In this document: piece after piece, positions 56,298 through 58,326 of the stretch
Position numbering within the stretch: position 1 is the first letter of the stretch
Layout of the letters: each line of letters starts with the position of its first letter
Source of the DNA: Haloactinospora alba
GTDB taxonomy: Bacteria; Actinomycetota; Actinomycetes; Streptosporangiales; Streptosporangiaceae
Direction: 5' to 3'
Length of the DNA: 64,000 nucleotides
Assembly: GCF_006717075.1 (NCBI RefSeq)
Contig: NZ_VFQC01000001.1
Coordinates: forward strand, 3,271,501 to 3,335,500
The notes under the pieces: model-generated
Seen by the model: the letters and a program-made list of their open reading frames with translations, nothing else
What the model was told of the DNA's origin: nothing
Database searches by the model: none
Made by a program: the position numbers and the translations under genes

Positions 56298-56888
56298 TCA
56301 GGCGGCGAGCTGGGCCACTCCCCGGAACACCATCACGCCTCCCGCGAGGAGGAACAGTCCCGCGGCGCAGTTCTGGATGGCACGCTGCGGCAGTTTCTTG
56401 CCCAGCAGCGCGCCCAACCCGATGGCGATCGCGTCGGCGAGTACCATCCCGACCGTCGAACCGATCCAGACGGGAAGCCAGCCGTACTGGGCACCCACGG
56501 TGACGGTCGCCAGCATCGTCTTGTCCCCCAGCTCGGCGACGAAGAACACGACGGCGACGGTGAGCAGGCCGGAACGGATGCGGCGGGAGGCGGCGCGCTC
56601 CTCGTCCCGCTCGGTCAGCTCGTCGCCGTAGAAGGTCCACACCCCGAAGCCCAGGAACGCGAGGCCGCAGAGGAGGGTCACCCAGTCGGTCGGGATCGCC
56701 AGGTTGAGCACCTCGGCGATGAGGACGCTGAAACCGTGCACCGCCACGGTCGCGGCCGTGATGCCGAGCAGCACCGTGGCCACCCGGTAACGGGTCGCCA
56801 GGGACATGGCCACGAGCTGGGTCTTGTCCCCCATTTCCGCGGCGAAAATGGCACCGGTACTGACTCCCAGCGCTGTGAGGATTCCCAA
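56298..56888 (-). CDS. GDT1/UPF0016 family manganese exporter
   Basis: A 196-residue membrane protein with about six helices in two homologous halves. Each half carries the family signature E-x-G-D-K-T: AIFAAEMGDKTQLVAMSLAT (about residues 13-32) and VVFFVAELGDKTMLATVTVG (about 113-132). These acids bind the transported cation. Bacterial relatives (MneA, Mnx) export manganese. Control by a manganese riboswitch upstream (56976-57072) independently supports this role. The start is the TTG at 56888 and is uncertain; AGGA lies 12 bases upstream. Confidence 0.88.
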   Translation of the reverse strand: MGILTALGVSTGAIFAAEMGDKTQLVAMSLATRYRVATVLLGITAATVAVHGFSVLIAEVLNLAIPTDWVTLLCGLAFLGFGVWTFYGDELTERDEERAASRRIRSGLLTVAVVFFVAELGDKTMLATVTVGAQYGWLPVWIGSTVGMVLADAIAIGLGALLGKKLPQRAIQNCAAGLFLLAGGVMVFRGVAQLAA

Positions 56889-56975
56889 GGGCCCGCCATT
56901 CCTTTCGGATCGGGCCGGGCAAAAGCACGGTCGGCGGACATCAGAGGCTTTCGACCCGGCGCGTTGCTACCGGAC

Positions 56976-57072
56976 CGAAGGTCTCGTCCGCCGGAATCCT
57001 CGCCGGCTCGTGCGACCGGGCCGCTCAGCGGGCCAGTGTGTCGACCGCACGCATCGGGACTACTCCCCTTCG
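56976..57072 (-). ncRNA. yybP-ykoY manganese riboswitch
   Basis: Read on the minus strand, the RNA opens CGAAGG|GGAGTAG and closes GACGAGA|CCTTCG: the two conserved loops of the Mn2+ riboswitch, with CGAAGG and CCTTCG pairing perfectly as the basal stem. Between them are GC-rich hairpins. The following 88 bases to the start of the exporter gene contain the expression platform. In this class high Mn2+ switches the exporter on. I recognise it from the two loop motifs and stem alone. Confidence 0.8.
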
Positions 57073-57081
57073 ACGGGAATA

Positions 57082-57120
57082 AGCGTAACAAAAAATCCCA
57101 TTATGGCAATTAATTGTCCA
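57082..57120 (-). promoter_or_regulatory. Promoter of the Mn exporter with overlapping palindrome
   Basis: On the minus strand TTGCCA (57104-57109), 16 bases, TACGCT (57082-57087). The -35 lies inside TGGCAATTAATTGTCCA (57104-57120), whose centre CAATTAATTG is a perfect palindrome. Such a site could bind a metal regulator. Transcription would begin at about 57075, immediately before the riboswitch. The 100 bases to murB are unusually AT-rich with no gene. Confidence 0.45.
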
Positions 57121-57216: not shown

Positions 57217-58326
57217 CTACAGCTCGACCCCCACCAGGATCGGCTCGTTCACCAACCACACCCCGAACGCGTCGAACACGCCCGCGCGCACCTCCCGCGC
57301 CAGCTCGATGAGGTCGGCGGTCGCGCCGTCGGCGGGACTGGTCAGTGCCAGGGAGTGCTTGGTGGAGATCCGCGCGGCGTCGCTGCCGTAGCCCTTGGCG
57401 AAACCGGCCCGGTCGATCAACCACGCCGCCGAGAGTTTCGTCCCCCCGTTCCCGTCCGGGTGGGCCGGAAGCTCCACGTCCGGTCCCAGCAGTTCGGCGG
57501 CGCGTGCCGCGACACGCTCGGCCTGCTCCGGCGCGAGCACGGGGTTGGTGAAGAAGGAGCCGGCACTGCGTGTGTCGGGGTCGGCGGCGTCCAGCACCAT
57601 GCCCTTGCCCCTGCGCAGCTCCAGCACGCTCGCGCGGGCGTCGGACAGGGGCACGCGCCCGCCCGCCTCGGTCCCGAGCGCGCGGGCGACCTCCCCGTAG
57701 CGCACCGGGCTGCTGCGGGCCGAGCGGGTGAGTTCGAACACGACCTCGCAGACGGCGTAGCGGTCGCTGCCCTTGAACACGCTGTTGCGGTACGTGAACC
57801 CGCACTCCGCGTTGGTCATGGTGCGGCGCTCGCCGAGACGGCGGTCGTAGACCACCACCTCGGCCACGGTCTGGCTGACCTCCTGCCCGTAGGCGCCCAC
57901 GTTCTGGATGGGGGTCGACCCCACCCGGCCGGGAATGCCGGACAGGAACTCGAGCCCGCTCAGCCCCTCGGCGACGCTCCACGCGACGAACGGGTCCCAC
58001 TCCACACCGGCGCTGGCACGCACCCGGACCCGGCCGGATCCCGCGTCCTCGACGGTGGTGCTGCCGGAGTTGACGTAGATCACGGTTCCGGGCACGCCCG
58101 CGTCGGCCACCACCAGGTTGCTTCCGCCGCCGAGCATCAGCAGCGGCTCACCGGCCGCGTCCGCGGCCGCCACGGCGGAGACCAGATCCCGGGTGTCCCC
58201 GACGGTGACGAACCTCTCGGGCGGCCCGCCGAGCCGCAGCGTGGTGTAGTCGGCGAGGGGCGGGGGCGCCCCGTCGCCGCGGGGGTCGCTGTCACGGGTG
58301 TGCGGGGACGGATGTGCTGCGGACAC
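57217..58326 (-). CDS. murB: UDP-N-acetylenolpyruvoylglucosamine reductase
   Basis: A 369-residue FAD enzyme of peptidoglycan precursor synthesis. DYTTLRLGGPPERFVTVGDT opens the FAD domain, MLGGGSNLVVADAGVPGTVI contacts the dinucleotide, and EFLSGIPGRVGSTPIQNVGA YGQEV and TYRNSVFKGSDRY are active-site segments. Ser in GSFFTNPVLAP is the conserved proton donor. It is a type I MurB by length. In actinomycetes murB usually neighbours the two MaoC-type genes, as here (gap 64 bases). Confidence 0.96.
   Translation of the reverse strand: MSAAHPSPHTRDSDPRGDGAPPPLADYTTLRLGGPPERFVTVGDTRDLVSAVAAADAAGEPLLMLGGGSNLVVADAGVPGTVIYVNSGSTTVEDAGSGRVRVRASAGVEWDPFVAWSVAEGLSGLEFLSGIPGRVGSTPIQNVGAYGQEVSQTVAEVVVYDRRLGERRTMTNAECGFTYRNSVFKGSDRYAVCEVVFELTRSARSSPVRYGEVARALGTEAGGRVPLSDARASVLELRRGKGMVLDAADPDTRSAGSFFTNPVLAPEQAERVAARAAELLGPDVELPAHPDGNGGTKLSAAWLIDRAGFAKGYGSDAARISTKHSLALTSPADGATADLIELAREVRAGVFDAFGVWLVNEPILVGVEL

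Follow-up and report, generated by a model that had tools for sequence, protein, structure and literature searches.

The window analysed here, a 64 kb (64,000-nt) stretch of the Haloactinospora alba genome, carries a GDT1/UPF0016 gene with a leader that resembles a manganese riboswitch of the yybP-ykoY class. This raises the question whether the leader really contains such a riboswitch and, if so, how metal binding would be passed on to the gene. Our preferred answer, to which we assign a probability of roughly 0.87, is a compact Mn2+-sensing riboswitch of this class that lacks helix P2, lies in the leader of a GDT1-family antiporter gene and switches translation ON by a relay that starts with the locking of helix P1.

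The aptamer occupies positions 56973-57076 of the minus strand and is followed 84 nt downstream by the GDT1/UPF0016 transporter gene (56298..56888, minus strand), which begins with TTG and encodes 196 amino acids. The protein matches PF01169 in two stretches with 140.7 bits (cut-off 27, E 1.9e-41), which confirms the UPF0016 gene that an earlier note, made from the sequence, had placed behind the RNA. The two E-x-G-D-K-T motifs of the GDT1/UPF0016 family (PF01169; MneA, TMEM165) are also present, here as AEMGDKT and AELGDKT (searched as E-x-G-D-[KR]-[ST]), and from its sequence the protein is predicted to be a cation/proton antiporter. On one side the gene is neighbored by murB (57217-58326, minus strand), on the other by a convergent adenosine deaminase gene. 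A Shine-Dalgarno-like sequence, GAAAGGA, is found at 56900..56906 (minus strand).

The earlier note had based its proposal on the sequences GGAGTAG and GACGAGA and on a basal stem CGAAGG/CCTTCG. All three are indeed present on the minus strand, and the window contains a single instance of the pattern GGGGAGTAG-N50..80-GACGAGACC, compared to none in 100 shuffled versions. However, the two sequences do not form two separate diagnostic loops, as had been assumed, but are the opposite strands of a single loop, L1. The actual second loop is L3 (ACACACT, 57035-57041), which had been missed. Within the aptamer, all of it on the minus strand, the switch helix P1 is formed by UCGAAGG (57067..57073; 97.6% of cells paired in alignment A1) and CCUUCGG (56975..56981), the latter being also the beginning of the 5' arm of an anti-P1 hairpin. 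The strands of L1 are GGAGUAG (57060..57066) and CGAGA (56982..56986). In the alignments A4 (77 rows) and A2 (79 rows), both fitted to the structure of the covariance model R1 introduced below, the former is kept in 77/77 and 57/79 rows and the latter in 77/77 and 52/79 rows, respectively. The upper part of P1 (P1.2) consists of UCC (57057..57059) and GGA (56987..56989), with covariation from UA to CG. P3.1 (57042..57050 with 57010..57018) comprises nine base pairs, six of them changed on both sides among the relatives, and the P3.2 hairpin with its loop (57019..57034) and P4 (GCCGG, 57003..57007, with CCGGC, 56990..56994) show covariation as well. The P4 loop region GAGGATTCC (56993-57001) is fully complementary to GGAATCCTC within the first codons of GDT1 (56877-56885, both minus strand); this complementarity is not evidently common to the relatives and perhaps due to chance.

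The metal-selecting loop L3 is a 7-nt bulge, ACACACU, at 57035..57041 of the minus strand. By sequence comparison, its third base (57039) is the counterpart of the Mn-contacting A48 of Xanthomonas oryzae and A41 of Lactococcus lactis, and it is an adenosine in all 156 rows (79/79 of A2 and 77/77 of A4). Two forms of L3 prevail among the model matches, mostly ACANRCY and UCANNNC. They agree with the published loops of X. oryzae (ACA48UACU) and L. lactis (UCA41AUUC), in which the numbered adenosine contacts Mn2+ according to passages of PMC6754395.

Helix P2 is absent from the window copy, since only 6 nt lie between P1 and P3. The same stretch measures 4-9 nt in 75 of the 79 R1 matches and 6-7 nt in all 77 loci of a second, named collection. 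Longer stretches of 14-16 nt occur in the remaining four R1 matches, namely the three places that R1 shares with the Rfam model RF00080 and one further RF00080 place that R1 finds weakly; judged by eye, a P2 hairpin is possible in these stretches. Without P2 the helices meet in a three-way junction, which precludes the four-way junction seen in the solved structures. There is a precedent for such a loss, and P2 is not strictly defining, since the mgtA Mn riboswitch of Streptococcus pneumoniae, as referred to in a part of PMC9495176, is likewise a yybP-ykoY aptamer whose helices meet in a three-way junction. That riboswitch differs from the present one in belonging to another phylum and in controlling a P-type ATPase and not GDT1.

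The earlier note had proposed a covariance search with the yybP-ykoY model, and such searches gave a divided answer. RF00080 (gathering score 45 bits) found nothing at the window site, neither at the gathering score nor at E<=10 (361 bases), and had no match in the whole genome at E<=0.001. The sole Rfam match on the small stretch was to a microRNA model and is meaningless. In contrast, the purpose-built model R1 scores the site with 94 bits, the window being itself one of the 24 relatives' rows from which R1 was built. The miss by RF00080 cannot be taken as a refutation, because this model overlooks the P2-less subtype. At the homologous sites of relatives, RF00080 gives sub-threshold matches in 1 of 10 loci (L006, 18.4 bits) and in 4 of a further 20 (L107, 28.8; L102, 26.0; L162, 20.8; L172, 17.1 bits). 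A GDT1 gene is present in 48 of 60 related genomes, and the core motif precedes it in 27 of 30 loci (the window's own included); a 28th (L030) was found by the later model.

Applied to the named collection (Nocardiopsis, Micromonospora, Salinispora, Pseudonocardia, Actinoplanes, Rhodococcus and others), R1 matches 77 of 80 GDT1 loci, always on the gene strand and just upstream of the gene. These 77 rows are not independent, as many come from close relatives within Micromonospora and Nocardiopsis, and one record had been seen before (L094 and L009 are apparently the same contig). The three loci missed by R1 belong to Thermobifida fusca and to two metagenome records labelled Bifidobacterium and Deltaproteobacteria. 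The T. fusca leader (L100:900-1200) keeps GGGGAGTAG and a basal stem GAGGGG/CCCCTC, its L1 looks degraded (ACAAAC in place of CGAGAC) and it has no recognisable L3; it is possibly a decaying or altered riboswitch.

A search of 296 genomes from the phylum gave 57 places for R1, spread over 49 genomes, and 11 places for RF00080, spread over 10 genomes, with one place above the RF00080 cut-off. Three places in three genomes are common to both, which indicates that the two models describe homologous RNAs. Seven of the 11 RF00080 places are missed by R1 (L063, L064, L066, L067, L069, L070, L072), so both forms coexist in the phylum. The P2-less form appears to be more frequent in the sampled phylum than the P2-bearing one, to lie below the cut-off of the standard model and to be under-described.

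The helices P1, P3 and P4 are supported by covariation, and the leader is a conserved structured RNA. In A1, a sequence-only alignment of 24 loci (L005, L006 and L009 were left out because of long inserts), 90.9% of the cells of P1, P3 and P4 are paired and 18 of 30 pairs are changed on both sides. The covariation score is 0.293 compared to 0.141 (sd 0.011) after shuffling, a value reached by 0 of 500 shuffles, and slid versions of the structure are paired in at most 48.7% of the cells. For the 77 named loci (A4), whose alignment is fitted to the model, the score is 0.322 compared to 0.155, again reached by 0 of 500. One might ask whether the site is a mere chance resemblance in a GC-rich leader. 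RF00080 finds nothing and the fold energy is unremarkable, the minimum free energy of the aptamer alone being no better than that of shuffled sequences in single-sequence folding (z 0.62), which would both fit this assumption. However, it is refuted by the covariation, the conserved placement upstream of GDT1 (77 of 80 named loci) and the metal-related context of several genes, and we regard it as having practically no chance of being right.

The genes behind the relatives' riboswitches help to narrow down the ligand. We examined 52 of the 57 R1 places (four were not fetched, and L055 lies at a contig end). A GDT1 gene follows in 24 cases (13 assigned by the E-x-G-D-[KR]-[ST] motif alone, 11 by Pfam), TerC in 16, a P-type cation ATPase in five and a Na/Ca exchanger in three, so that 48 of the 52 places precede a cation-transport gene of these kinds. 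The remaining places are followed by peptidase M50 (two), peptidase M48 (one) and an ORF without Pfam match (one), and an MntP gene is found behind one further match that bears P2 (L068). Control of the GDT1 family by this class is already known, since, as given in the relevant part of PMC7380456, 328 of the 333 UPF0016-bearing strains screened have this gene under yybP-ykoY control.

Three actinobacterial genomes carry R1-type riboswitches directly before genes for membrane metalloproteases (L081:206-299, L089:209-302, L092:205-302), one of them M48/HtpX-like and two M50 with a CBS domain, which is an unexpected regulon for the class. The ORF without Pfam match lies behind a 44.1-bit R1 match (L088:209-309); counted from its first start it has 326 amino acids, with a proline-rich middle and an alanine/glycine-rich region near the C-terminus. 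Furthermore, a GDT1 subgroup whose first motif reads E-x-P-D-K-T instead of E-x-G-D-K-T is also found behind the riboswitch (L043, L046, L029, L054, L057, L061, L076, L078, L030, L040).

From class homology and these genes we infer Mn2+ as the probable ligand. A subtype that has lost P2 might instead sense another divalent ion, for instance Ca2+, Co2+ or Fe2+. The three Na_Ca_ex genes and the five P-type cation ATPase genes among the 52 places would be in line with such a change, as would a Ca2+-responsive three-way-junction relative in pneumococcus (mentioned in a passage of PMC9495176 citing Martin 2019). However, the Mn-selecting adenosine of L3 is invariant in all 156 rows, and TerC, GDT1 and, in the one P2-bearing relative, MntP are expected members of a Mn2+ regulon. 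Therefore, we consider another ion quite improbable. The proposal of the earlier note, a Mn2+ riboswitch on an exporter gene, is supported by the sequences, as aptamer core, gene and the relatives' gene families all fit.

The riboswitch probably stands at the very start of its message. The window promoter can be read as TTGCCA-N16-TACGCT, with a putative -35 box at 57104..57109 and a -10 box at 57082..57087 (minus strand). The earlier note was right in placing a promoter directly before the RNA, since TANNNT occurs at the -10 offset (span -32 to -18 searched) in 116 of 121 leaders, compared to 3, 5, 4 and 4 in control spans of equal width. By consensus, however, this promoter is weak, and a consensus scan for promoters and terminators at the window found neither it nor a terminator-like site. 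In most leaders, TANNNT starts 18-20 nt before L1. Because this offset is conserved, P1 should lie at the extreme 5' end of the message, with transcription predicted to start at about 57075, close to the first base of P1.

Downstream of the aptamer, the 3' strand of P1 can enter an alternative structure. In the window this anti-P1 hairpin consists of UUCGGUCCGGU (5' arm, 56969..56979, minus strand) and GCCGGGUCGAA, with 11 bp and -14.2 kcal/mol, and its arm shows covariation in the relatives. The 3' arm, segment X (56947..56960, minus strand), can alternatively pair with segment Y, GCUUUUGCCCGG (56915..56926, minus strand), when P1 is formed. Scored as at least 9 of the first 12 nt from the P1 3' strand being paired in a downstream hairpin, the anti-P1 hairpin is present in 43 of 47 leaders, compared to 12.3 expected from shuffled downstream sequence. 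These leaders are those of the 79 R1 matches with a GDT1 gene (L065 and L086 left out), and the best fold of the window row used another partner. The mean energy is -28.3 kcal/mol, the window row contributing the value of a larger enclosed fold. The 12-nt test was chosen after seeing folds and was then repeated on the 77 named loci, where 69 have the hairpin compared to 18.9 expected. A 7-nt duplex test of the P1 3' strand against the downstream sequence had shown no significant effect (median z -0.57), with 9 of 47 leaders among the best 5%. The pairs of the hairpin covary in A3, with a score of 0.291 compared to 0.200 (sd 0.011; 0 of 500 shuffles) and at most 50.6% pairing in slid versions. 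A3 holds 36 of the 47 leaders, as ten with hairpins longer than 50 nt and one without hairpin were omitted; the limits of the window hairpin were set manually.

The pairing of X with Y and the accessibility of the Shine-Dalgarno sequence (SD) were examined in those 107 of 124 leaders in which the anti-P1 hairpin is present and X is separated from the SD by 12 nt or more. The X:Y model was devised after inspecting leaders and is therefore partly post hoc. X:Y energies average -21.1 kcal/mol compared to -14.9 kcal/mol for shuffled sequences and fall into the best 5% in 79 of 107 leaders; the window value is -22.3 kcal/mol against a shuffled mean of -13.5. The paired fraction of the SD is 0.65 with Y free and 0.39 with Y occupied by X, 80 leaders changing in the predicted direction and 15 against it (p 3e-12, on related sequences). 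Pairing of Y with the SD also exceeds that of shuffled Y (0.54 vs 0.40); a first Y:SD measure had given a weak result (0.05 or less in 11 of 107 leaders) owing to too short a target region, and was replaced by this later one. In a simpler two-state fold of the 124 leaders, SD accessibility did not differ significantly (0.278 vs 0.294, p 0.084).

When the full leader of the window is folded with the aptamer forced, X:Y forms, and when it is left free, the anti-P1 hairpin forms, as the switch requires. By secondary-structure energies, calculated without Mn2+ or tertiary contacts, anti-P1 is some 15 kcal/mol more favorable than the aptamer. SD pairing in the window copy hardly changes (0.49 vs 0.47). 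Its SD is held in one and the same hairpin of three base pairs whichever state is adopted, and the folding therefore does not predict a translational output for the window copy.

Taken together, we propose the following course of events. Transcription would begin at about the first base of P1, and Mn2+ bound between L1 and L3 would lock P1. Locked P1 would keep its 3' strand out of the anti-P1 hairpin, so that arm X is freed for pairing with Y, directly before the ribosome-binding site. Otherwise Y would pair with the ribosome-binding site in most relatives, and Mn2+ would thus turn translation of the exporter ON. For the family, the folding models lead us to infer the ON direction and a translational output; for the window copy this is the weakest step.

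It is conceivable that the same Mn2+ aptamer acts on transcription. In that case, either the anti-P1 hairpin or exposed RNA behind it would stop the polymerase when Mn2+ is lacking, intrinsically or with the help of Rho, P1 held by Mn2+ would prevent the stop, and X:Y would be a by-product of sequence mimicry. For riboswitches of the L. lactis type, antitermination controlled by P1.1 has been studied as the mechanism, as described in parts of PMC6754395 and PMC11087558, and the anti-P1 hairpin is long and stable. However, the pairing of Y with the SD and Y itself are conserved beyond shuffled sequences. Moreover, no U-tract follows the hairpin: the mean is 2.25 T in 10 nt compared to a background of 1.91, at least six T occur in 1 of 107 leaders and TTTT in 3 of 107. 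The earlier note, which had seen no obvious T-tract in the platform and considered translational control, is thus upheld on the former point, and the scan had found no terminator-like site at the window either. This argues against an intrinsic terminator and is compatible with Rho. Translational control is favored for the family by the conserved X:Y helix, an anti-anti-SD, and the missing U-tract, with a weaker case for the window copy. All in all, we regard transcriptional control as unlikely, though as the most serious competitor of the translational relay.

The RNA shares with the RF00080 class P1 with L1 (GGAGUAG/CGAGA), P3 with a 7-nt L3 bearing the Mn-contacting A, P4 and the position before GDT1, TerC, MntP and cation ATPases; it differs in the missing P2 and in a score below the gathering cut-off. 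The terC leader of Corynebacterium glutamicum is also an actinobacterial yybP-ykoY element with an observed transcript, according to the section concerned of PMC3890552. In contrast to the present leader, it was picked up with 49 bits by the Rfam model then in use, and its gene is TerC. In the open-access literature searched we found no description of an actinobacterial P2-less form, and we do not claim that it is unpublished. Hence, the class and its GDT1 targets are known, and what appears to be under-described is the P2-less form with a conserved relay platform before GDT1.

A more far-reaching joint reading would be a distinct P2-less subclass in Actinomycetota, largely overlooked by Rfam, with a five-strand relay in GDT1 leaders and a regulon that reaches metalloproteases (M48, M50). 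The relay would consist of mutually mimicking segments (P1 5', P1 3', X, Y and the ribosome-binding site), by which the locking of P1 would reach ribosome access about 50-160 nt downstream without a terminator. We consider the chances of this reading as a whole to be about even. If it is true, the annotation of Mn2+ control is badly incomplete in a large antibiotic-producing phylum (49 of 296 genomes with R1, one with RF00080), and an improved covariance model would mend it. The existence of the compact aptamer suggests that the class can do without P2 and the four-way junction across wide evolutionary distances, and the relay platform would link metal binding to translation by a route open to testing.
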